From: a virus
DNA: 43,646 nt
Strand: one strand, 5' to 3'
IMG/VR virus record: IMGVR_UViG_3300037493_001662
Location: 1 to 43,646 of that record
Under the pieces are notes generated by a model that did not search any database, was not told the DNA's origin, and saw only the letters and a program-made list of their open reading frames with translations. Both the position numbers and the translations under genes were made by a program. Positions 3,749-29,199 of this stretch are shown here, one piece after another (the stretch's first letter is position 1; each line of letters begins with the position of its first letter).

Positions 3749-3828
3749 TAGTCTTATATGGTGCCAGAAAACTGGCGGGGGGGCCGCCAGAAAATAGGTG
3801 GGGGGGTGCCAGAAAACTGGCGGGGGGG
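3749..3828 (-). repeat. Iteron cluster A: three quasi-palindromes separated by G7 runs
   Basis: On the plus strand there are three units, each ending in seven G: TGCCAGAAAACTGGC, CCGCCAGAAAATAGGT and TGCCAGAAAACTGGC. The outer two contain GCCAG and CTGGC arms around AAAA. On the minus strand the cluster is followed by TGGCACCATATAAGACTA, an exact 18-base match to the flank of cluster B at 14497-14514, then AT-rich sequence also loosely similar to that after cluster B. This is probably a binding array for the phage initiator. Confidence 0.85.
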
Positions 3829-3950
3829 CATGCGTAGATTACAGACCCCTAATATACGCAAAGTGTCAACCTTTTTACAATAAATTATGCAAGTGAAGAT
3901 GATTAGCGTCCTGGCCGCCTGACCGGATGGCGCGACCCCCTCCCCGCCAG

Positions 3951-5138: not shown

Positions 5139-5400
5139 AGCGTTACGTGTTTTATAGCGTTACTACTATTAAAGCGTTACCACTAACTTACATTTATAGC
5201 GTTACTAGTATTAAAGCGTTACTACTATTACACTATTACAACTATCCTATATTACTAGCGTTACTAGTTTTATAGCGTTACCATTATCAGCACTATCAAA
5301 CAATCGTGCTTTCAGAACCATTATTTGCTTGACAACATTAGTTTCATCCCCCCTAATAACCCCCGTTCTCTTAAATTACTCTTATTAGTATTAGCGTTAC
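5139..5400 (+). repeat. Phased AGCGTTAC repeat array
   Basis: Exact AGCGTTAC copies start at 5139, 5156, 5173, 5198, 5215, 5257, 5274 and 5393. A degenerate ACTATTAC sits at 5232. Spacings run 17, 17, 25, 17, 17, 25, 17, making a 59-bp higher-order unit repeated about 2.5 times. The last copy is 119 bp (7 x 17) from its neighbour. The typical 17-mer is AGCGTTACTAGTATTAA. The regular spacing suggests a multi-subunit DNA-binding site. Confidence 0.85.
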
Positions 5401-5538: not shown

Positions 5539-5561
5539 AAAAAAAGGTGCCGAAGCACCTT
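5539..5561 (-). terminator. Rho-independent terminator of the minus-strand early operon
   Basis: Read on the minus strand, AAGGTGC-TTCG-GCACCTT forms a 7-bp stem with a C(UUCG)G tetraloop and runs into a T-tract. It lies 24 bp beyond the stop of the 41-residue gene. Confidence 0.9.
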
Positions 5562-5584: not shown

Positions 5585-5710
5585 TTAGTCAAACCAACTG
5601 TCGTAGTAGGATTGCTCGTATTGAGTAAACAGGTAGTTTACATAACGCCAGTATTGCTGGTAATCTATTACGTGCTGATTACTGTCAATAACAGGTTTGT
5701 TACTTTGCAT
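5585..5710 (-). CDS. Small Tyr/Gln-rich protein, 41 aa
   Basis: The ATG at 5710 overlaps the stop of the upstream gene, and the frame runs 41 codons to TAA at 5585. The peptide contains HVIDYQQYWRYVNYLFTQYE and ends in YDSWFD. It is unusually rich in Tyr, Gln and Trp, suggesting an amphipathic helix. It is the last gene before the early terminator. Overlapping start, correct strand and terminator placement argue that it is real. Function is unknown. Confidence 0.55.
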   Translation of the reverse strand: MQSNKPVIDSNQHVIDYQQYWRYVNYLFTQYEQSYYDSWFD

Positions 5711-6137
5711 CGGTTGGTGGGACTTTGGGCTTAGTAAGAGTCAACTGGTCTTTGCGACGCTGGCGATACTCGCGTTGATAGCGAAGTATCTTTTCCTTGT
5801 TGAGGAAGTAATACTCGTTATAGGTGGCTCGATACTCTTCACGGGTTTTAAGCGTTTGCTTAAATAGTCCGCAACTAACACCCATTTGATATATAGAAGC
5901 AGCAGTTTTAGGTGTTTCGCGGGATACTTTGATTCGTGCTTCTTCAGCAATACGTGCTTCCTCTTTTTTCTTCCAATCCGCAGTTGATATCATCTTGTAG
6001 ATTACAACTTTACGAGTGTTGCAACTACCCTTAGGCTTCACACCAAACTTCTTTTTGTCGTGTTGCTTGAGTTTGATTGCTAACACATTGTCTAGCAATA
6101 CAGTAGGAACATATTGAACTTTAGTCCGAGTCTTCAT
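5700..6137 (-). CDS. Hypothetical basic protein, 145 aa
   Basis: This highly basic protein follows the amidoligase in the minus-strand operon. Residues about 55-75 form a charged helix (WKKKEEARIAEEARIK). Near the C-terminus is YYFLNKEKILRYQREYRQRR, a pattern resembling the basic linker often found before or after HNH nuclease domains, but no HNH motif is present. Two Cys occur (CNTRK near residue 39 and SCGLF near 88), too few for an obvious zinc site. It may bind nucleic acid. Its place in the amidoligase operon makes it a possible partner or substrate, without direct evidence. Confidence 0.7.
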   Translation of the reverse strand: MKTRTKVQYVPTVLLDNVLAIKLKQHDKKKFGVKPKGSCNTRKVVIYKMISTADWKKKEEARIAEEARIKVSRETPKTAASIYQMGVSCGLFKQTLKTREEYRATYNEYYFLNKEKILRYQREYRQRRKDQLTLTKPKVPPTDAK

Positions 6138-6160
6138 AGGTTTGTGGTTTTACCGGTATT

Positions 6161-6190
6161 AGGGTAATCACCGGAATTGGTGACTACCCC
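6161..6190 (-). other. Intercistronic inverted repeat
   Basis: AGGGTAATCACC and GGTGACTACCCC can pair around GGAATT, nearly perfectly, between the amidoligase stop and the next gene. No T-tract follows on the minus strand, so mRNA processing, stability or attenuation is more likely than full termination. Confidence 0.45.
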
Positions 6191-6201
6191 TACCAGTGGG
6201 A

Positions 6202-7674
6202 TTATTCGATCGCCCCTTCTGTTGAGTTAACAGCGATTGCGTAAGTATCGAAGTCTTTCAATACAGGCAATGATGCTGCTACATAGGACGGTTGGAACTT
6301 GAGGATACGATTAACTACGTAATGCTTCAAGTCGAAGGGTGCATCAGACTGCATAAAGTCCTCGAAGGTAGCAACACTAGTATAAGGCTTAGCCAAGTAT
6401 TGCATAAAGGCACACCAATACTTCAACTTGTGGAAGTTGAGAGTTGGCATACCTAGTCGGACTTCTACAGTATTATGCTCCGATAGGCATTGGGTATTGA
6501 CAGCAGTATAGCGATTACCGTGATGGTCGCGGTCGATGCCACAGTAGTGATTGTGGGAACGAGAGTAAGATACGGTTCGGTGTGCCCAGCCATTGATAGC
6601 ATCACGCAGTTTAGTAGCCGTGCGTAAAGCCGACTGATTCGTGCGATGACGCATATCAATATGGACGTGATTCCCACAAGTGTTATTAACCTTAGCACCT
6701 GCATCGGTCATAGACTTCATCACTTCCTGCATAGTCTTCCAATCCTTCGGACTAGAGCCATTGATGAACCACGTCAATTCCTGGTAAGACGCTAACTGTT
6801 CGGACTGTAGGTTAGTGCGAATAGAACCATCACCCTTAAAGCACAACCAAGGGTGTTGAGGGAATCCATCTGTATCCCAATTTACGATATCGCTATTACG
6901 ATTAGCAACAAACTCTAACTCGATTCCTAGGCATTCACCTTCCGGTCGGAGTCGTTTAGCGATAGCAAGACTATGACTATTGAGACTACGCATCCAGTTG
7001 TGGGGACGGGTTTGCACAATATGCTGAATCATAATATTGAAGCGTTGAGGTAATGACTGAGTTGCGGTGCGACTAGTAAACTGTGCACTACGACGAATAC
7101 GACGAAGACGGATTCGCTGGAACCACTTAGCCGCAGTAACCGTATCTCCGTGCATCATCATCGTTTTCTTCTTATCATCCGAATCGACAAACTTGCAGTC
7201 GTTAGGGACAATCTCATTCATACCATTATGGAAATGAGGTGCTTCGATAGTTGCTACGAACGCTTCCGGTTGATACTGATACTGTTCTAATACCACTTGG
7301 TGGTTCTTACCAACCCAACCAAGCAAGTTATTAGCAGACTTACCGGATAACTTGACTTGCTCCATTCGTAGCAGAATGGTAACTCGGCTAACGATAGTTG
7401 ACATATTAATGTCAGCCCAGTTGTCATACTCGAACCACTGGGAACCCATAATTACCATCTTAATGAGGGTCGGATTATTCCGAACGAATTCAGGACTCTG
7501 ATTCCACTGGGAAACCACTTCTGCTACCTGTTCATCCTTTTCGTTATACTGACGACCGATACGAGTGCTAGCAATCAACATAACGATGATATCGTTCTGT
7601 TTCTTGCGAAGCGTGGGATTAGCGGAAAGAAGGAGTTGTTCCTTCTTGTCATTCTTACTGTCGTTGATACTCAC
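6202..7674 (-). CDS. Amidoligase-family enzyme with long N-terminal extension
   Basis: The C-terminal half matches the putative amidoligase family (glutamine-synthetase-like fold, ATP-dependent carboxylate-amine bond formation). Motifs in order are GIELEF (about residues 247-252), DGSI (about 283), CGNHVHID (about 333-340), a YCGIDRDHHGNRY segment and NTVEVRLG (about 399-406). These acidic, His and Arg residues would bind Mg-ATP. The first 240 residues are not part of that domain and I do not recognise them. The gene starts with GTG. It lies downstream of a class II glutamine amidotransferase on the same strand, the pairing expected if ammonia or an amide group is handed over. The substrate is unknown: a peptide, cell-wall component or metabolite are all possible. 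Confidence 0.8.
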   Translation of the reverse strand: MSINDSKNDKKEQLLLSANPTLRKKQNDIIVMLIASTRIGRQYNEKDEQVAEVVSQWNQSPEFVRNNPTLIKMVIMGSQWFEYDNWADINMSTIVSRVTILLRMEQVKLSGKSANNLLGWVGKNHQVVLEQYQYQPEAFVATIEAPHFHNGMNEIVPNDCKFVDSDDKKKTMMMHGDTVTAAKWFQRIRLRRIRRSAQFTSRTATQSLPQRFNIMIQHIVQTRPHNWMRSLNSHSLAIAKRLRPEGECLGIELEFVANRNSDIVNWDTDGFPQHPWLCFKGDGSIRTNLQSEQLASYQELTWFINGSSPKDWKTMQEVMKSMTDAGAKVNNTCGNHVHIDMRHRTNQSALRTATKLRDAINGWAHRTVSYSRSHNHYCGIDRDHHGNRYTAVNTQCLSEHNTVEVRLGMPTLNFHKLKYWCAFMQYLAKPYTSVATFEDFMQSDAPFDLKHYVVNRILKFQPSYVAASLPVLKDFDTYAIAVNSTEGAIE

Positions 7675-7764
7675 GGTTTTGTTGTTTTTTGGTTTTTACT
7701 GCTTTAGTCGGTTCTACAGAGTGTAGGATTGCCAATGTTAGCAGGAAAGGGGGGGAAAGTTTTA

Positions 7765-7784
7765 CATCCCTATTACTAGGGATG
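7765..7784. promoter_or_regulatory. 8-bp palindrome between amidotransferase and amidoligase genes
   Basis: CATCCCTA-TTAC-TAGGGATG is a perfect inverted repeat in a 185-bp spacer. On the minus strand a TTGAGT lies 16 bp before a TAATAG that overlaps the palindrome, so this may be a promoter with an overlapping operator for the amidoligase. There is no T-tract for termination. Confidence 0.35.
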
Positions 7785-7859
7785 CCTTAAAACTCAATTT
7801 AGTTCTGTTTTTGAACTATGGTAATTGATGAATTGAAGGATTTTGATCGAACTGACCGA

Positions 7860-8939
7860 TTAGTAGCCCCAGTCGGAATCCTTCCAAGCCTTGGTTTGCT
7901 TGCGACTGTTCTTCTTCGACTGCTCCATCGACTTCTTGTGATACGCGTCCAACATCGCTTGCTCGGATTCAGTAACTACTTCTTCTGGTTCAGTAGAAGG
8001 AGTGCTAGGAGTAGCCAGAGTCGCAGGACTGTAGGACTTGTAGGTTCCTGGTGAATAACCACCGCTATAGCCACCAGTATAACCACTAGCACCAGCACTA
8101 CCAAGACTGCGATAGATGCTAGCGGTGCTGGCATAAGACATAGAACTATTGAACTTGGGAAACTCCGATGAGGTGACTTCACCATTCTGTTGGAATACGT
8201 GTTTTACGTAATCTGCTAGCATCATAGGAGTCGATACATTCGCAGTTTTGATCGAATTGAAGTCGCACAACATCTTGGTCAATTCAACGCAATGCGTCTT
8301 ATCCGTGCAAATGACGTAACTGTCCAATTCCACGATATAGGACATATATAGTGGTGCTCGGTTATCACGCAATACAAACATATTGCCTATTGAATCAAAT
8401 CCTACAACTGCAGCATAACCAGCAAGACCATCTTTGAAGGATTGCTCGCCGTTAAGGTGAAGGAAGCAATTTAGGATATGCTCCGAATCGCAGGTAGTAT
8501 GTAGTGGTAGTTTCTCACCAGTCCACTCGACTACACCATTATGTGCAATCGTATAAGTCCCGTGTTCGTTGGAACCGGTAAATGGGTGAGTATTATCAAT
8601 ACTCTTACCACAAGTAGCGGTGCGACCGTGAGCAATGATGGAACCGTTAATTGCACCTTTCTTAGGTTTCACACCATTCACATCAAAGTCGATACCTTCG
8701 ACTAGTTTCGTTTTGATATTGCTTTTAAGCATATCAATACCCTCTTTAAGAGTGCCCATACCAGCAACGGTATCTGCGGAAAGATACCGTTCTGTGTATT
8801 GACCATTCTGGTGTTTGATGGAATAACCGAATCCATCTTTTTGACTAGCACCTAGCAAAAATGCCATTTTAAGCACTAATGCTGATGCCTGTTTGCTATT
8901 TTTAGTAGCAATACGGCTAATTGCAATCATCTTACACAT
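7860..8939 (-). CDS. Class II glutamine amidotransferase
   Basis: This enzyme would hydrolyse glutamine to release ammonia for a partner. I chose the ATG at 8939 because it places the nucleophile at Cys2 (MCKMIAISRI), which becomes N-terminal after Met removal, as the family requires. Further motifs are DGFGYS (35-40), AHGRTATCGKSIDNTHPF (103-120; the substrate-binding Arg and Asn region), AHNG (132-135; oxyanion hole), TCDSEHIL (149-156) and RDNRAPLY (191-198). The C-terminal 100 residues are unusual: a Ser/Tyr/Gly low-complexity stretch (GYTGGYSGGYSPGTYKSYSP, about 286-305), then an acidic and a basic segment ending in WGY. The frame stays open to an ATG at 9065, adding 42 residues. That would need propeptide cleavage as in some PurF or GltB enzymes. 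Confidence 0.85.
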   Translation of the reverse strand: MCKMIAISRIATKNSKQASALVLKMAFLLGASQKDGFGYSIKHQNGQYTERYLSADTVAGMGTLKEGIDMLKSNIKTKLVEGIDFDVNGVKPKKGAINGSIIAHGRTATCGKSIDNTHPFTGSNEHGTYTIAHNGVVEWTGEKLPLHTTCDSEHILNCFLHLNGEQSFKDGLAGYAAVVGFDSIGNMFVLRDNRAPLYMSYIVELDSYVICTDKTHCVELTKMLCDFNSIKTANVSTPMMLADYVKHVFQQNGEVTSSEFPKFNSSMSYASTASIYRSLGSAGASGYTGGYSGGYSPGTYKSYSPATLATPSTPSTEPEEVVTESEQAMLDAYHKKSMEQSKKNSRKQTKAWKDSDWGY

Positions 8940-9178
8940 ATGTTTATTGTTTTGTTGGTATAAGTCCGAGTGATGCTTTGCAACGACTGTTGCAATCGAT
9001 AGCATATTCCGATCAATCGTGTTGATGGAACTGTTGCTTCGGATAGTTGCACTACTTGGACTCATAGATGTAATAGTATCAACTGAATTGAATACAGCAA
9101 GCCATCATTTGACTAAATGGACATAGATAGATGGACTCTGCTATTACTAGTAAAATGATCGACTGTAGTAATAAACAA

Positions 9179-9406
9179 TTACAATCCAATGTATGATAGT
9201 GGGATGTATTGTATCACGGGATGCATAAGGTTGCTAGTATCTACTGGAAGTCCAGGATACACAGTAATTTTAGTATCTACATACTTAATACCATCTTGGT
9301 GATAAGTTTTATAATCAACAATTATATTGCTGACGTAGATTGTATTGGGCACGGGAATATTAATCCGGTTGTTTTCAGTCGTCTTGATGTTTATAGTGTT
9401 TGACAT
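9179..9406 (-). CDS. Hypothetical protein, 75 aa, upstream of amidotransferase
   Basis: This small Asn/Ile/Tyr-rich protein has a beta-like pattern (NRINIPVPNTIYVSNIIVDY). It has no signal peptide, membrane segment or known motif. It lies on the same strand about 240 bp upstream of the chosen amidotransferase start (about 110 bp upstream of the earlier one) and could be co-transcribed. Amidoligase operons sometimes encode short peptide substrates, so it is a candidate substrate or accessory factor. That is inference from position only. Confidence 0.6.
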   Translation of the reverse strand: MSNTINIKTTENNRINIPVPNTIYVSNIIVDYKTYHQDGIKYVDTKITVYPGLPVDTSNLMHPVIQYIPLSYIGL

Positions 9407-9532
9407 ATTGGTAGTTGTTGGGAATAGTTGTATTCCGGTCAGATACTGATTAGTAGCAGCCGGTATTTGGTGGGTTTTGTATTTTTCTGACTTTTATTTT
9501 TCCGCGTCCGCTGTTGGGCCAGGAGTCAGTCT

Positions 9533-9636
9533 ACTATTAAATGCGTTACAATTTTGATTCTGTAGGATTTATCCTAAAAACTAAACTATTAAATGCGTTA
9601 CAATTTTGATTTCGTGGAATTTATCTGAAAAAGTGA
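9533..9636. repeat. Tandem 52-bp direct repeat, two copies
   Basis: Copies at 9533-9584 and 9585-9636 agree at 44 of 52 positions, and the first 27 bases are identical. Each carries CTATTAAATGCGTTAC, close to the CTATTAAAGCGTTAC of the 5.1-5.4 kb array. The pair lies immediately beside the tRNA cluster and may bind the same protein or mark a mobile segment boundary. Confidence 0.8.
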
Positions 9637-20677: not shown

Positions 20678-20986
20678 TTATTTAGTTTCTCCCTTTATAA
20701 GCCTAGAGCGTATAATGTCAAACAGTTCGCTTGATACAGCCCCAGAGATTGAATACAGGATGCCCTTATAGATTGGCATTATGTCAACATAATACAAAGC
20801 ACAGTATGTCAAAACCCCAACGCAAGCACCTGCAAAAACCTTCCGGCCCCAGATGAAGATATGATACTTCTCATTGGTAAGAACTAACTTAACAAACGCA
20901 CCCATCGCTCCGAGTATGATTACCACCCATCCTCCAGCCTTAAAGTCCGCTATTACCGCCCGAAACGATTGGTCGTCATTGTTCAT
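20678..20986 (-). CDS. Holin, LydA-like
   Basis: A 102-residue protein with three likely membrane segments (about residues 19-36, 49-68 and 72-90) and short charged ends. Size, topology and position directly before the endolysin support a holin that triggers lysis by permeabilising the inner membrane. The FIWGRKVFAG linker between the first two segments is reminiscent of the LydA/phage_holin_3 group. The ATG overlaps the stop of the giant upstream gene as ATGA. Confidence 0.8.
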   Translation of the reverse strand: MNNDDQSFRAVIADFKAGGWVVIILGAMGAFVKLVLTNEKYHIFIWGRKVFAGACVGVLTYCALYYVDIMPIYKGILYSISGAVSSELFDIIRSRLIKGETK

Positions 20987-23900
20987 CGTGGTGCAGGCTT
21001 GTTATAGCGATTGGCTGGGTAAACTCCACCTTCTGGGGCAGGACGCTCTCTCATAGACTCTGGTATCGGTCCAGAATCTAATCCAGACCCTTCAGCAATA
21101 AATCTCTTCATCCATATTGCCTGTCTAGATGCCTTGTTAACTGCTTCTTGAGCATCCTCAAGGCTGTTGGTTCTTGCAATTATATTTGCACCATTGTAAA
21201 TAACGAATGTTGCCTTTCGAATATCTGTTGGGTCACCCTTACCAAGCACTCGCTTGCCGAGAATATCAAGAGAACCAGTTTGTTGAGAAATAATAGTAGG
21301 CATATTGACTTCCAAGCCCATTGTTGGCGTATCAGACGAAGAAACTGTTAAGCCAAAGGCAGAAGTGCTTCTAAAGCCAGAAGCCTTAGGCATTAATTGT
21401 TGGATTATAAAGCCCATCTTATTCACATAGAATGTAGCCTCTCCAGACACTTCGCCTTCCCTCATACTATTTCTAATTTGAGCCAACTTACCAGCAACTT
21501 CCTTGCCTTCTGCAATTCTATTTGCTTGATTACTAAGACCTCCGAGGACACTAAGAAGCCCGTCAAATTCGCCTTGTCTTGCTTTCATACCCTTAGCATA
21601 AGCAACAAGTGACGCAATTTCGTCTTCGTCTATTGGTCTTTCTCTGATGGCTCTATTTTGCTTATCCCATTCAATTGCTTCCTGTAGATAATCCTTTTGT
21701 GCCTGTTCAAACTTATCACGGGCTTCCTGTGAAGCATTTGGTTTAACACCTGCTGGCTTCTTAGGTCTGCTCCAAGCCCATGCTTGACCAAGATTCAGTC
21801 TGTCAACGGCTCGCTTGTCTTCAAGTATTTGCTCTAGTTCAAACTTAGCCTCTTTTGACGCTTCACTTGTCATTTCCTTCAATTTTTCAGCAGACCATTC
21901 ATTAGTCCACTTTTCAACCCAATCGCTGACAGCCTTATGGTCGTTATCAACGACAGTATCACCGAGTTCTTTACGCATTAATTTAGTAATAGTATTAACC
22001 GCATCCCATCCCATGCTTTCAGCAAAACGCTTTCTCATCTCATAGTAAATAGGATTTCTCTTAGCAATTAATCGCTTGTCTGGAGCACCAGTATCTCCGT
22101 GAACAATGAAATAATCAGCAAGACCCAATTGTCCGCTAGTAGGATGCTTGTAACCTTTTACATCTTTTTCAAACTTATCAGCCACGGCAATCTCAACCAT
22201 ATTACCTTCTTTTGCAGCCTGTATCGCTGCATTTAGGTCTTTGACATTTGGGGTCAAGCCATCAGACTTAAAGCCAACACTAATTCCCTTAAATATAACA
22301 AGTCCACTATTTATGTCAACAAGTTGATATCCAGACTTACTATTGTAAACCTTACGTTCGGCTTGCCACTTGCCATCCTTAGAAACAAATGTATCTCTAA
22401 TCGTTCCAGCAAAGTTTATACCCTTAGGAAGCCAGCCTTCGTCTCTTAATGCAAGTTCAAGGACATTTGCTCTTTCTGGTGGCAATGTAAGTGTAAGAGA
22501 GTGAGACTCAGCAAAGTCAAATGCAGTTTCTTTATTGTTATAATTTCTACCGGCAAGTCCTCGCGTTGGGTCAAAAACAAGATACTCTTTCTTTATAACA
22601 TCTGGCTTTTCTGTTCCATCTGGTCGTTTTCCTCCCTTAAGGATTCTTTCCTGTCTAAATATAGAATATCCAGACTTGTGAAGATATCCCTCTGTTAGGT
22701 TTTGACCCTGCATATTAAACAGGCTTTGATTCGAGGTAATGTCCTCTGGGGTCATTTGAACCCAATTCTTAGATGAAAAGTTAGCCGCACCCCACCCTTG
22801 TGTGAATTGATTAAACTGAACCTTTGAAGGACCATTGTTGGTCATATGCGGAACAGCAGTCCCTTGGAATCTGTCAATTCTGAACAGAGAAAACGGATTC
22901 TGGGTATCTCTCATTCTTTCTCCACCAAGTGAATTAGGATGTTCGCCATACAATCTAGCAAGTTTCTTTTCAGCCGCAGAAATACCCTCTAAAGGACTAA
23001 ACCCTCTGTCGTCTTCGTTTTCTGGGTCAAACTTCTCTCTTAATTCATCTCTTCTTGCTACTTGTGCAGCACTCATTTCCTTTACCTTCATTTGTTCAAG
23101 CCCATTAAGTTCAACAAACTCAGTTCTAGTAAATCCAAGAATTCGATTAATTGCTGATGCCATTAACTTTGCATCACCGGGATTATGTCTAGCAAGAGGC
23201 ATAAGCAGTTCCCAAGACTCATTAGGAGGTCTTTGTGCCGTAGGACCAGTTGCTCTCGCTATGTTGCCTCCTTGTTGATAACCTGTAAGGACAATATTAA
23301 TTCCTTCGTTTAAGTTTTCAAGTCTTCCGTGGAACAAGTCCTGTAGTTGTTGCTTTCCGTCTTTATAACCCTTTTCTTTTGTTCCCCAATAAGGAGTGCC
23401 AGTTTCATCAAAGATAAGGTTATTCCAACCATTACGAGTTGACTTACCAAGAGCCACCATGTCAAGCATTTCAACGTAAATGTGGTCAGTAACTTCACCA
23501 TCTGCATATTTCTTACCAGAAACATCTAATCCAGATGGTCTAATAACTAAACGCATTGGAACGAGCAATCTTTGTTGAACGTGAGTGTTCTTAGTTCTTT
23601 TTGTTGTTCCTTCGCCCACACCTTGAGTCGCACCTTCGTATTCTGCCATAAACACTTGAGTCCAACCGCGACTATCCTTAGGAGCACCTGGGTCAAACAT
23701 ATTGCCGTTAGCAATTGCCTCCATAAAGATACCAAGATTTTCCATTACTGCTTGATTTCCTTCTGAACCAATATTCTTATATTCAGTCTTAATGTGTTCA
23801 AGGATTCTCTTTGTTTGTGCTAGGTTAGGGGCACCAATAAGAACAGTTCTTCCATCGACAGTCTTCCTGACAGTAAGGCCAGACCAGTCTTCCCCTTCTC

Positions 23901-26900
23901 CCATTTTAGGTATAATGACTCTATCAACAAGGCTTTGAAGTGGTTTCCACTCGTCGTGCATCAACTTGTCTAGTGACTTCTTGAACATCAATGTATCTGG
24001 ATTGATGAAGTGTGGACGACCAGATGCCAAAGCCCATTGCCATCTTTGATTCTTTGCCTCTGGGGATGAATCATTTTCTCTAGCGAATACGCTTTCCGTG
24101 CTGAAAATATCCCACGTATCTATCTTTCCACCTCTGTTTCTGCTTCCAATAATCATCTGCTCTGCCCATCTCATTGCTATTGGGTCGATTGGATTCAACT
24201 CTCCAGTCATTGGGTTTCTGATAACGCCGGTCTTGTAGAATGTTAAATCTGGAGTGGACTTTGCATCATCAATAACAAACCCAAGGTCTTGCAGTTTGCC
24301 CTTGGTGTATTCAGTCAACATCCCATCCCAAGCCCCGTTAACTTTGAAGATTTTCAAGAAGTTTGCAGCCATTCTTACATTTTCAGCCAAGGTAGCCTTT
24401 GCATTATCTTTTAGTTTATCTGGACCCTTACCGCTAAAGTCAACATCCGTCCCATTGATTGGATTGCCATCGTTGATTATGTCGTTAACAGTCAAATCTC
24501 CAACAACAAGTTTCATCAACAGTCGGGCCTTAGGCTCAAGTTTGCCTGAGACACTTGCGTTTTTACCTAAGAACCAAGAAAGCGAACCAGCCTGTGCATT
24601 GTTACCTTCTTGTCCAATTGGAATGTTCCCATACTCAAGCGAACCACTCTTACTACTTCCCTGTTGTCCCATTCTTCCAAACTGAGGATTGGCAAGTTCC
24701 ATTCTTGCTTGATATAGTCTTCCAGCAAATTCAATGAAGCCAGCCTGCAGTAGTCTTGTGTCATCTGGGTTCTTTCCAATGTTTACCTTACCCTGTTCCC
24801 ATCTTGCCTTAAAGGAAGCACCCTCGGCATCGCTCATAGTAGTTGCGTGTGCATCTATGAACATATCCAACATTGCAACTGATTTTTCAACAGTTCCGCC
24901 AAGAAGCGGACCCTTAACTAATACTCTTTGCCCATCTTGGTTAACCTCATACTGACCAAAGATTATGTTTCGCAGATATGCTCTGGAATCTCTCATGTTC
25001 TCCGTATAGAACAATGCGTGAGAAATTTCCTCTCTTGCGTCTGCAGTAGAGAACTTGTCTTTGTCTAGGTAAATTCTGACCTTTCCGTTTTGCTCCCAAA
25101 CTGTTATACCATTCTTGAAAGATGTAAGGAAAGCCCCATCTGGACCCATAGTAATTGCACCATCTCTGTATTCTGCAATAGGATTATCTTGTTCAATACC
25201 CTTTGCTTCAATATCTAGTTCTTCTAACTTCTTAGTAATATCAAGAGCCTCAAAGTTATTCTTTCTCTGAAGTTCTTTTATTCTTAAAACTTCTTCTCTA
25301 AAAGTTCTGAGTTTTTTGACAATGTTTTCAGGAAGTCCAGCAGTAGGAATACCGCCAATTGTTGCGTTTCTATCAATGTTTTCTCTATGCGTTACTTCAG
25401 CAACCTTATTTCTATTGTCAACCTCTTCGCGTCTGTCAAGGTTCTCCTGTTCAATCTTGCGTCTTTCAACCGGAGTTGCATTTGGGGAAATAGGCTTTGG
25501 TGTTGGATATGGCTCTGGAACAAATGGGACAATGGTTTCAACTGGGCTTAAGAACGAATCTGGTGACATTCCAGCATCCTTTGCAATCTGTTCAGCCGCA
25601 AGTGCTTGTTCATCTACTTCCTTGCCAGTTGTTTCTTTTAATTTCTGCAGTCTTGCTTCAAGAATACCTCTCTCCTTGCTGATTGAACCTCTTCTGACAC
25701 CGGCAGCGTTATTCCTAACTGTTTGCTCAATCATTTGATTGGCATATGCAACTGCTGTTTCTCCAGTAAGTCCCTGTCTTGTGGCAACAGACATATAATG
25801 GTCACGCAACTTATCTGCGTGTTCTGGGTTAGCCAAGTTAAGGGATTCCATCAACGAAACCAATCCGTGTCTTACGCCAGCATCAGTCAATTCAATGGTT
25901 GCACCTATTCTAAACAGATTCGCCATCGTGAACACTTCTCTGGCTAAAAATGTATCAGCAGCCTCATCTCCCGACTTTTTTCTGATGACTTCTGCATTGT
26001 CCTTTGCTTGAGTCAGAGCCTTAAGGATATACAGATTTTGCACATCTCCCTCGACTCCAACATTGTCGGACATTCGTGCTCTCAACTCATCCAAGTCATA
26101 AGTCATTCTTTCTTGCAATTTCTTATTCTTTGTGAAGTGAGTAACCCATCCGCTACTGATTGAGTTCACCCCAGTTCCAAACAAAGCAAATCCTGTCCCG
26201 TTACCAATGCCCTGCATACCACTAAACATACCAAAGAAAGCCTCATTAGTTGCAGCACCAACAGAAGCATCACGGAATAACTTTGTAGCACCAGCAACAG
26301 CACCATTTCTAGACCAAGAACTTAAGTTGTGTGCCCACCAATCTTTTACATTGAGGTTGTCGTATTGCTTTTCAATTAATGCTAGTTCCTTCGCTACATT
26401 GACAGACGAAGCAGTCGTTTGTGGAACCTCTCTGACAGTTGTTTCACCAAGTTCGGCTAATTCCTTTTGAATGGCAGGCCAATCAGATGGACTAATTGAT
26501 GCCTTTCTAATTAATAACGCTCTCTTTTCTCGATTGAATTTATTACGCATAGCCAGAAGCGTAGAGTTGTATTCACCGCCAAGAGTTACCTTATTTAGAG
26601 TTTCAAATTCCATTAGGAAGTCACCCATTTCCCCTACGGCACCAGCCATTCTTAGGAATGGAACAATCATTGAAACTACTGCGTATTTTTCTGCGGCTTT
26701 CAAGCCCCCTTGCTGAAGGGTTGCAACTGAAGTTCCGGCTGGACCAGACATTCTTGCTGAAGTCATTACAGGAGCAATTGGGAGTCCGTGAACCCTATTG
26801 AACTCCTCAAGTCGTTCAGCCATCCAATTGCCACTTTTCAATAACCATGTCGCTCCTGTGAATAAATGATTCTTATGTATGTAATCAATTTGAACTGGAC

Positions 26901-29199
26901 CAAGACCGCTTCTTTTAAGTCCGGCAATTCCGTCTGGGTCAATAGCCTTCCAACTTGAACCAACTTCCTTTTCAATGGCACGAAGTTCATTTGCATTGAT
27001 GACTCCTGTTCCCTTTCCTTTAGGGAAACTACTTCTTCTCATTCTGTCATAAATAACATTATCTGCAATACCAGCAACATACATGTCTGGGTATGTGTCC
27101 TGAAGAATCTGTCTAGCCTTAGCCAAGGTCTTTAGTGACTCTGGGGAATACTTTATGTTCTTGCCAGCCCAAGCCGCCCTTGCAATAGCATCTCTTACAG
27201 TTTGAACACCTGCAGCCTTTTCTGAAATCTTTTGACTTAGTTGGTTTAAGGTGGTTCTTGGAACTTCAATTAGTTCATTTGGATTCTTTGGGTTCTTGAT
27301 TTTCCCAGTTCCGTTAAACGCTCTTTCAATGGCTTCATAGTCATCAATCCCTTTACCGCCATTTTCTAACTTTGCACCATCTTTAATTTCGGAAATAACT
27401 CTTCTAATCTCAATGCTTTCAGTTGCTGAAGTAAAATCAACTCCTTGGGCTGCTAGTTTTCTCAACTCGGTAGTCATTGCTTCCCGAGTAGCCTGTAAAC
27501 CAGTATTTTCCATAAAACTTAGGTATCCTTTACCACCAGTTTTAATTCCAGCATACTTCAAGACACCCTTGCCAGCAGCAAGTCCTCCCCTGACCACACC
27601 AGCACCTTCAATAGTCGTAAAGAACATTGACATATCTTGGTGGTATCTCGTGTCCGTCATTGATGGGAAAATCCCATTGGTGGACAAGTGATGATGCCAG
27701 CGACTGTATGTAACTGCCGTGTTCATTCGCTTCATTTCTTCTTGTTCAATTCTTTCTCGCAAAGTCATGTCAGGACTTGGATTCCCAGTTACATCTCCAA
27801 TAGTATCAACAAGTCCGCTTGTTGCAGTAGAAGTTCCAGCCATAATCTGACTCCACCATCTGTCTGGACCTGTGTCAATTCCCATACCAGCCATACCGAT
27901 TGTTCCGGTAACCGCAGCAGAAAGCATGGTCATTATTTGAGTAATTCCCTGCGTTTTAGAGTCAAAAGCACCTCTAGCATCTAGTTCCTTGTGCATAATG
28001 CCAAGTTGCATTACAAGTTCTGGCAACTGCTTTCTTTTTTCTGAATCAAAGAAATCCCAGTCAACTTTTCCAGTAGATGTAAACTGCTTATCAACCAAAT
28101 CAAGTGCTGCCTCTTCCGTGAACCCTTTCAACACCTCGCCACTTTGCTTTGCTGAAATCAAAGTCAACATAAGCGTTTGATATTCGGCCTTCGACTTCTC
28201 ATCCTTAAAGTCTGGATTCCAACCAATTTGAGGGTCGCCAACGGACTTCATTGACTGATAACCAGTATTAATAACAGCATCAGTAAGCATCTTCATTGCA
28301 TTTACTGAGTTTTCGCCAAAGGTTTCCATTATTCCTCTTTGGTCTGGATGTTCTGTATTCCACTTACGGAACTCTCTCCACATCTTTACGTCTCTAGGGT
28401 TTTTGTAATTTAACAGAAAACCAGTCTTTCTCATTTCGGCTTCCAGTTGAGATGGATGGAAAGTTCCACTCTTACCAATCTCCTCCAGATTCATTTTTTG
28501 AATTAACAGAAATGGACTTGTGTCGTATTCTATTGAGCCAGGATTTTCAGCAGTTGAACGGAAGAACTCTTCTTCTTCTTTTGTCTCAAACATACCGCCA
28601 GCCTTAGACATAGCATCAGCCAACGCTATTGGTGTTTTAAGCAAAGTATCATCGCTCTGAAGCAGTCGTTGGAAACGAGGGTCGTCTTGGTATTTACCAG
28701 CAAAATGCTGGGCTTTAGCCTGTGCTCTACCTAGTCCAATTAATATATCCTTTGGTGTTTTACCAAAGTTAACAAGGAACTCTGCCTTTGGGTGAAGTGT
28801 TGGAATCTCTCTTAATGGAATACTTCCACCACCGGGAAGGACATTGGCATTAGCCATTGCTTCCTTATCCCACTTCTGCATATCTTCACGATGTAACTTT
28901 TGTGATTCAAGTGCAAAAACAGCCTTTCGATTAATTTGAGCACCGAGTGGGTTTTTTTGGTCAATAATGCGTTGATACGCTTGCTCGGACTCTGGACTTC
29001 CATCTTGAAGTTCGATAGGAGGGACAAAGGATGATTCACCCTTTCTAACAGGTATAAAAGGTGGAAGTTCGCCTCTTTTTATTGCCTTTGTATCAATCTC
29101 ATTAGCAATAGATTCAACGGGTCTTGTGACTGCTCCTGCAGTCAAAGGGTTGGGCGTGGGCGTTTTCTTAGGTAAACCAGAAGCAGGTGTCTCAGCCAT
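20983..29199 (-). CDS. Giant internal virion (ejection-type) protein, 2738 aa
   Basis: This single gene takes about 19% of the genome. Its place at the end of the structural genes, just before the lysis cassette, and its size suggest an internal or ejection protein delivered with the DNA, as in N4-like and other podoviruses. The N-terminus is Pro-rich. Segments around residues 450-560 and 830-860 contain hydrophobic stretches. Near residue 1390 lies REEISHALF, followed by DAHA and FIEFAGRLYQ. This resembles the zinc-peptidase helix found in large phage proteins, but the first HExxH His is Glu. I searched for T7-like RNA polymerase motifs and saw none convincing. Multiple domains are expected and most are unrecognised. 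Confidence 0.85.
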   Translation of the reverse strand: MAETPASGLPKKTPTPNPLTAGAVTRPVESIANEIDTKAIKRGELPPFIPVRKGESSFVPPIELQDGSPESEQAYQRIIDQKNPLGAQINRKAVFALESQKLHREDMQKWDKEAMANANVLPGGGSIPLREIPTLHPKAEFLVNFGKTPKDILIGLGRAQAKAQHFAGKYQDDPRFQRLLQSDDTLLKTPIALADAMSKAGGMFETKEEEEFFRSTAENPGSIEYDTSPFLLIQKMNLEEIGKSGTFHPSQLEAEMRKTGFLLNYKNPRDVKMWREFRKWNTEHPDQRGIMETFGENSVNAMKMLTDAVINTGYQSMKSVGDPQIGWNPDFKDEKSKAEYQTLMLTLISAKQSGEVLKGFTEEAALDLVDKQFTSTGKVDWDFFDSEKRKQLPELVMQLGIMHKELDARGAFDSKTQGITQIMTMLSAAVTGTIGMAGMGIDTGPDRWWSQIMAGTSTATSGLVDTIGDVTGNPSPDMTLRERIEQEEMKRMNTAVTYSRWHHHLSTNGIFPSMTDTRYHQDMSMFFTTIEGAGVVRGGLAAGKGVLKYAGIKTGGKGYLSFMENTGLQATREAMTTELRKLAAQGVDFTSATESIEIRRVISEIKDGAKLENGGKGIDDYEAIERAFNGTGKIKNPKNPNELIEVPRTTLNQLSQKISEKAAGVQTVRDAIARAAWAGKNIKYSPESLKTLAKARQILQDTYPDMYVAGIADNVIYDRMRRSSFPKGKGTGVINANELRAIEKEVGSSWKAIDPDGIAGLKRSGLGPVQIDYIHKNHLFTGATWLLKSGNWMAERLEEFNRVHGLPIAPVMTSARMSGPAGTSVATLQQGGLKAAEKYAVVSMIVPFLRMAGAVGEMGDFLMEFETLNKVTLGGEYNSTLLAMRNKFNREKRALLIRKASISPSDWPAIQKELAELGETTVREVPQTTASSVNVAKELALIEKQYDNLNVKDWWAHNLSSWSRNGAVAGATKLFRDASVGAATNEAFFGMFSGMQGIGNGTGFALFGTGVNSISSGWVTHFTKNKKLQERMTYDLDELRARMSDNVGVEGDVQNLYILKALTQAKDNAEVIRKKSGDEAADTFLAREVFTMANLFRIGATIELTDAGVRHGLVSLMESLNLANPEHADKLRDHYMSVATRQGLTGETAVAYANQMIEQTVRNNAAGVRRGSISKERGILEARLQKLKETTGKEVDEQALAAEQIAKDAGMSPDSFLSPVETIVPFVPEPYPTPKPISPNATPVERRKIEQENLDRREEVDNRNKVAEVTHRENIDRNATIGGIPTAGLPENIVKKLRTFREEVLRIKELQRKNNFEALDITKKLEELDIEAKGIEQDNPIAEYRDGAITMGPDGAFLTSFKNGITVWEQNGKVRIYLDKDKFSTADAREEISHALFYTENMRDSRAYLRNIIFGQYEVNQDGQRVLVKGPLLGGTVEKSVAMLDMFIDAHATTMSDAEGASFKARWEQGKVNIGKNPDDTRLLQAGFIEFAGRLYQARMELANPQFGRMGQQGSSKSGSLEYGNIPIGQEGNNAQAGSLSWFLGKNASVSGKLEPKARLLMKLVVGDLTVNDIINDGNPINGTDVDFSGKGPDKLKDNAKATLAENVRMAANFLKIFKVNGAWDGMLTEYTKGKLQDLGFVIDDAKSTPDLTFYKTGVIRNPMTGELNPIDPIAMRWAEQMIIGSRNRGGKIDTWDIFSTESVFARENDSSPEAKNQRWQWALASGRPHFINPDTLMFKKSLDKLMHDEWKPLQSLVDRVIIPKMGEGEDWSGLTVRKTVDGRTVLIGAPNLAQTKRILEHIKTEYKNIGSEGNQAVMENLGIFMEAIANGNMFDPGAPKDSRGWTQVFMAEYEGATQGVGEGTTKRTKNTHVQQRLLVPMRLVIRPSGLDVSGKKYADGEVTDHIYVEMLDMVALGKSTRNGWNNLIFDETGTPYWGTKEKGYKDGKQQLQDLFHGRLENLNEGINIVLTGYQQGGNIARATGPTAQRPPNESWELLMPLARHNPGDAKLMASAINRILGFTRTEFVELNGLEQMKVKEMSAAQVARRDELREKFDPENEDDRGFSPLEGISAAEKKLARLYGEHPNSLGGERMRDTQNPFSLFRIDRFQGTAVPHMTNNGPSKVQFNQFTQGWGAANFSSKNWVQMTPEDITSNQSLFNMQGQNLTEGYLHKSGYSIFRQERILKGGKRPDGTEKPDVIKKEYLVFDPTRGLAGRNYNNKETAFDFAESHSLTLTLPPERANVLELALRDEGWLPKGINFAGTIRDTFVSKDGKWQAERKVYNSKSGYQLVDINSGLVIFKGISVGFKSDGLTPNVKDLNAAIQAAKEGNMVEIAVADKFEKDVKGYKHPTSGQLGLADYFIVHGDTGAPDKRLIAKRNPIYYEMRKRFAESMGWDAVNTITKLMRKELGDTVVDNDHKAVSDWVEKWTNEWSAEKLKEMTSEASKEAKFELEQILEDKRAVDRLNLGQAWAWSRPKKPAGVKPNASQEARDKFEQAQKDYLQEAIEWDKQNRAIRERPIDEDEIASLVAYAKGMKARQGEFDGLLSVLGGLSNQANRIAEGKEVAGKLAQIRNSMREGEVSGEATFYVNKMGFIIQQLMPKASGFRSTSAFGLTVSSSDTPTMGLEVNMPTIISQQTGSLDILGKRVLGKGDPTDIRKATFVIYNGANIIARTNSLEDAQEAVNKASRQAIWMKRFIAEGSGLDSGPIPESMRERPAPEGGVYPANRYNKPAPR

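Follow-up and report, generated by a model that had tools for sequence, protein, structure and literature searches.

A conserved amidoligase and glutamine amidotransferase gene pair in a phage lineage, with a fast-evolving amidoligase N-terminal domain

Which genes make up the unit around a predicted amidoligase and glutamine amidotransferase in a phage genome, and what might that unit modify? The window analysed here is the whole of IMG/VR virus record IMGVR_UViG_3300037493_001662 (43,646 bases, positions 1 to 43,646). In it, the genes for a class II glutamine amidotransferase (GAT) and a glutamine synthetase (GS)-like amidoligase lie on the minus strand, with a terminase gene on one side and seven tRNA genes on the other.

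Amidoligase/GAT pairs are widespread among phages, with guesses as to their substrate going back to 2009. They were predicted by Iyer et al. 2009, including the pair of phiEco32 (as relayed in PMC10580990 and PMC11318856), and both genes were reported in the OM43 phages MEP401/402 and in more than 30 related genomes (PMC10580990). The pair has also been described as a peptidoglycan modification cassette (PMC5498523, PMC11945000), carried by the podoviruses RIO-1, PSA-HP1, LUZ24, tf and PA11 (PMC5498523, PMC3890496), for which PMC5498523 cites Hardies et al. 2013. Peptidoglycan modification and a block to superinfection are the predicted roles of the phiEco32, LUZ24/tf, RIO-1 and OM43 phage pairs (PMC10580990, PMC5498523, PMC3890496, PMC11945000). 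The window pair belongs to this published kind and is no new system. A preliminary description of the locus had called phage versions largely uncharacterised; this overstated their novelty, since both the pair in phages and what it probably does were already in print, and stands as regards experiment, the literature searched having yielded no experiment that shows activity of any phage amidoligase/GAT pair. What is new here is the clear two-gene minimum and a fast-evolving N-terminal domain on the amidoligase.

Two apparently intact enzymes

The GAT (359 aa; positions 7860-8939, minus strand) was recognised in a Pfam profile search by PF13522 (E=8.1e-10). Its listed open reading frame spans 7860-9065, but homology in all relatives begins at the sequence MCK, at base 8939; the gene was therefore taken to be 7860-8939, which places a cysteine at position 2. 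The preliminary assignment as a Cys2 amidotransferase was thus retained with a corrected start. The MC start is kept wherever the N-terminus is present, with one relative beginning VC. Conserved motifs comprise the MCK start with C2, H104-R106, H133-N134-G135 and D151-S152-E153, and across 19 aligned GATs the residues C2, H104, R106, T109, N134, G135, D151, S152 and E153 were invariant. All the class II features that were looked for, namely the HxRxAT arginine, the oxyanion NG and the acidic D-S-E, are present.

In the predicted model of the GAT (pLDDT 73.0), a PurF/GlmS-like domain at residues 1-250 is followed by a disordered linker at about 270-322 and a C-terminal helix. The best PDB fold matches were PurF and GlmS (E to 5e-9; Ntn-hydrolase fold), with AsnB ranking lower. 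The GAT domain has a dN/dS of 0.08-0.16 when compared with closer relatives, indicating purifying selection. GAT-II enzymes free ammonia from glutamine.

The amidoligase (490 aa, GTG start; positions 6202-7674, minus strand) matched PF12224 (Amidoligase_2; E=1.9e-9, 38.2 bits against a curated cut-off of 22) and phrog_2443 (1.4e-13), and shares only ~25% identity with the closest amidoligases of named phages. The alignment comprised 24 amidoligases and reached as far as those of LUZ24 and an Arthrobacter phage. G250, E252, E254, D282, S284, H336, R372, E404 and R406 were invariant in all of them and H338 in 23, such that the G-x-E-x-E, D-x-S, H-V-H and E-x-R residues, the expected metal, ATP and substrate ligands, are invariant or nearly so. 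The predicted model (mean pLDDT 87.2, pTM 0.59) had GS-superfamily proteins as all of its best 24 PDB fold matches (GS, YbdK or a homologue, GmaS), with E values reaching only 3e-3; in BFVD it matched amidoligases of phages (E to 3.8e-13). For both proteins a PDB sequence search returned nothing useful, so only the fold searches inform on structure. GS-like ligases activate carboxylates with ATP.

Judged from these residues, both active sites appear intact and neither enzyme looks dead; loss of the amidoligase's ATP or Mg ligands, which the preliminary description had raised as evidence against its reading, is therefore not what was found. Its proposal that the two enzymes are encoded together was borne out by the profile matches, the intact motifs and the GS/YbdK and PurF/GlmS folds.

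The pair as the conserved unit

Eleven further contigs from the window's phage lineage, some of them partial, have the two genes side by side; one more, L016, breaks off at the amidoligase. Gene order is swapped in two of the eleven (L008 and L017). In a wider scan, 34 of 36 viral contigs with a GAT carried an amidoligase adjacent to it or overlapping it on the same strand, a count that holds for the window's own GAT family only, as the scan patterns were derived from GATs of that family. The two exceptions were L049, a contig whose end falls within the GAT, and L065, whose protein Pfam does not recognise as a GATase and which was dropped as a GAT. Co-occurrence in relatives, on which the preliminary reading depended, was thereby confirmed.

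The pair is kept in differing, unrelated genomic neighbourhoods and in both gene orders. When all neighbours within 5 kb were clustered, no third gene family was common to the window lineage and the distant lineages. As no further family is shared among its contexts, the pair itself is the unit, and with just two genes kept it lends itself to a simple expression test. Taken with their apparently intact active sites, the two enzymes are tied together as a unit.

Bacterial genomes yielded four loci, of which at least two appear to have phage-like neighbours; one of them holds three amidoligases and a single GAT. None of the four showed a clear cellular pathway context. At L072:7278-13084, binned as Proteobacteria, three different amidoligases surround one GAT, and a pyrimidine dimer glycosylase-like gene lies among them.

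The preliminary description had proposed an operon of five genes, with three small open reading frames as candidate substrates or accessories. This did not hold: only the two enzymes are conserved, and the small neighbours are local to a sub-clade or probably spurious. The basic 145-aa protein (5700-6137, minus strand) and the 41-aa protein (5585-5710, minus strand) are encoded by frames that overlap by 11 bases, at the end of the 145-aa gene. Homologues of the former were found at 35-66% identity in the five nearest relatives (L014, L016, L015, L003 and L004) and were absent elsewhere, with a dN/dS of about 0.65; the latter was clear in two relatives only (L014 and L016; 73-78% identity, dN/dS about 0.23). 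These two proteins may be accessory to the pair, which for the 145-aa protein is the most that can be said, and the pair occurs elsewhere without them.

The 75-aa open reading frame (9179-9406, minus strand) had no relatives in any fetched locus. In the nearest relative that has this stretch, L014 (92% GAT identity), a TAA comes directly after the ATG of the frame, whose body carries indels, with both flanks conserved. Being broken there and without relatives, it is probably no gene of the pair's system. As substrates, the small neighbours were rejected, the 75-aa frame on these grounds and the 145-aa and 41-aa proteins for being confined to near relatives. The non-coding stretches flanking the 75-aa frame (9060-9180 and 9410-9530) are strongly conserved in L014, unlike the frame between them, and may serve the GAT gene as leader or promoter.

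The unit is closed by an intrinsic-terminator-like hairpin (AAGGTGC-TTCG-GCACCTT followed by a T run; 5544-5561, minus strand). At its start no specific promoter was found, promoter-like matches being at chance level. Behind the terminator, non-coding positions 5140-5400 hold eight copies of an iteron-like repeat with a GCGTTAC core, and two further copies lie at 9543-9601, between the tRNA genes and the GAT. These two regions hold 10 of the 13 GCGTTAC sites of the window, and L014 retains six plus two copies at the corresponding positions. The repeats may mark an origin of replication or be sites for a regulator.

In the window the seven tRNA genes lie directly upstream of the pair, an arrangement that would suit modification of phage DNA or tRNA by the two enzymes. 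Against this, five contigs (L005, L007, L008, L017 and L021) keep the pair with no tRNA gene beside it, and no DNA-modification gene was recognised among the window genes scanned. Such a target is very improbable, and since the pair exists without tRNAs, a tie between it and the tRNA cluster was dropped.

A fast-evolving N-terminal domain on the amidoligase

The 240 residues that precede the GIELEF motif (residues 1-240; positions 6955-7674, minus strand) are predicted to form a helical domain, mostly at high pLDDT, for which there was no Pfam match. The domain is present in every full-length amidoligase of the window lineage, and the extra N-terminal region noted in the preliminary description is accordingly real, being folded, helical and lineage-wide. 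Amidoligases from more distant phages are much shorter, at 352 aa against the 490 aa of the window protein.

Identity to L014 is 59% over the N-terminal domain compared to 88% over the core, and identity to L003, L004, L005 and L015 is 25-35% compared to 57-72%. The domain has a dN/dS of 0.53-0.59 compared to 0.18-0.27 for the core, which is under purifying selection; the N-terminal part thus evolves two to three times faster, with the reservation that several of the underlying dS values are above 1 and near saturation. Recombination may contribute to the contrast, since in L014 dS also differs between the two parts. We infer that the fast-evolving domain is the specificity or partner-binding part, and it is where to look for target specificity.

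A large helical addition that evolves two to three times faster than its core is what would be expected of a domain following a changing partner. This favours a reading in which the pair modifies a phage or host protein bound by the N-terminal domain, through side-chain or C-terminal amidation or the attachment of an amino acid. The title of Iyer et al. 2009, as given in PMC10580990, indicates that peptide modifications of proteins were proposed for the family. However, no conserved substrate candidate travels with the pair, the three small neighbours not being conserved with it, and we regard this reading as possible though clearly less probable than the one preferred below. A narrower form, in which the domain directs the amidoligase to a particular host protein (for example a receptor or a defence protein) that is amidated with ammonia from its own GAT, appears doubtful.

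Candidate targets of the pair

Our preferred reading, to which we assign a probability of about 0.4, is a two-protein glutamine-dependent amidoligase whose N-terminal domain chooses the target, the likeliest being a peptidoglycan precursor. The GAT would hydrolyse glutamine by means of its N-terminal cysteine to yield ammonia. The amidoligase would use ATP-Mg to activate a carboxylate, by way of an acyl phosphate, and then capture the ammonia, or another amine, to form an amide. Transfer of ammonia from the GAT to the amidoligase is, from the chemistry of the two families, highly probable. The N-terminal domain would pick the target, for which a carboxylate of a host peptidoglycan precursor, D-gamma-Glu or diaminopimelate, is the best candidate, and the resulting change of the wall during infection might render other phages or lysins less effective. 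The peptidoglycan target is a guess from published work, and both it and the benefit to the phage are proposed with low confidence.

Staphylococcus aureus MurT/GatD resembles the phage pair in principle, as an ATP ligase and a glutamine amidotransferase that amidate a carboxylate; its folds are unrelated to those of the phage pair, being a Mur ligase and a class I amidotransferase. Through that system, such a combination is known to be able to amidate peptidoglycan Glu (PMC3267633).

Among phage systems, the pairs of the phiEco32/OM43 type likewise combine a PF12224 amidoligase with a PF13522-type GAT in the same tailed phage, whereas the window represents another phage lineage and its amidoligase carries the long, fast-evolving N-terminal domain. 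Genes 97 and 98 of the Arthrobacter Laroyevirus Edmundo show the same two-gene form, as neighbours on the same strand, but the Edmundo amidoligase has 337 aa, is 24% identical over the core and lacks the long N-terminal domain. The podovirus cassette likewise has an amidoligase and a GAT adjacent to each other (LUZ24 gp18 and gp19). In LUZ24, a COOH-NH2 ligase, the amidoligase, the GAT, a RimK-like ATP-grasp protein and GGCT are encoded in one run.

Peptidoglycan is favoured because related phages pair the amidoligase and GAT with gamma-glutamyl enzymes, an argument that is drawn from other phages and not from the window lineage. Unlike the podovirus cassette, the window lineage has a bare pair, with no detectable GGCT/GGACT or RimK-type ATP-grasp gene: GGACT (PF06094) and RimK (PF08443) were found in 0 of 14 records, which covered the window type and its relatives, in searches whose controls were positive. 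A search with PF14395, a second COOH-NH2 ligase, gave no match, and gave none in any positive control either. A link of the window-lineage pair to GGACT or RimK genes was therefore dropped, and the transfer of the gamma-glutamyl and wall argument to the window is weakened.

Of the named phages, C75C1 has the terminase closest to that of the window (32% identity). Near an amidoligase it encodes a protein in which an N-terminal GAT-II-like domain is fused to GGACT, and the annotation of this protein mentions only a gamma-glutamyl cyclotransferase. In the fusion (L032:16095-16991), PF06094 was strong, PF13230 reached 9.4e-5, just under the cut-off, and the D-S-E motif was not visible in the alignment. 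The fusion, together with the GGCT genes of LUZ24 and Clostridium prophages (PMC11318856), would fit a GAT that feeds no ammonia but serves as gamma-glutamyl hydrolase or transferase, beside an amidoligase that joins an amine or amino acid, the two making or remodelling gamma-glutamyl compounds. We consider this rather unlikely for the window, given that its GAT is nearest in fold to the ammonia-donating PurF and GlmS, more so than to AsnB, and that none of the 14 records has a GGACT gene.

Still less likely is action of the pair on a small soluble metabolite, for instance to divert glutamine nitrogen or to make a signal or inhibitor. YbdK and gamma-glutamyl-methylamide synthetase are among the nearest folds of the amidoligase, and the OM43 study counts the genes among auxiliary metabolic genes and cites, for phage Marvin, a suggested secondary metabolite (PMC10580990), but no other metabolic gene is linked to the pair.

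Three further observations concern the window at large. Positions 20983-29199, in the late region between the endolysin and other structural-type genes, encode a protein of 2738 residues that matched no PHROG clearly. Shine-Dalgarno-like sequences are nearly absent before window genes (mean longest match 0.63 compared to 1.06 at random places) and A-rich leaders precede many of them, which is compatible with a Bacteroidota-like host and is no proof of one. At non-coding positions 3760-3829, a short unit of 22-23 nt (GGTGCCAGAAAACTGGCGGGGGGGC) is present three times in tandem and could fold into a small hairpin.
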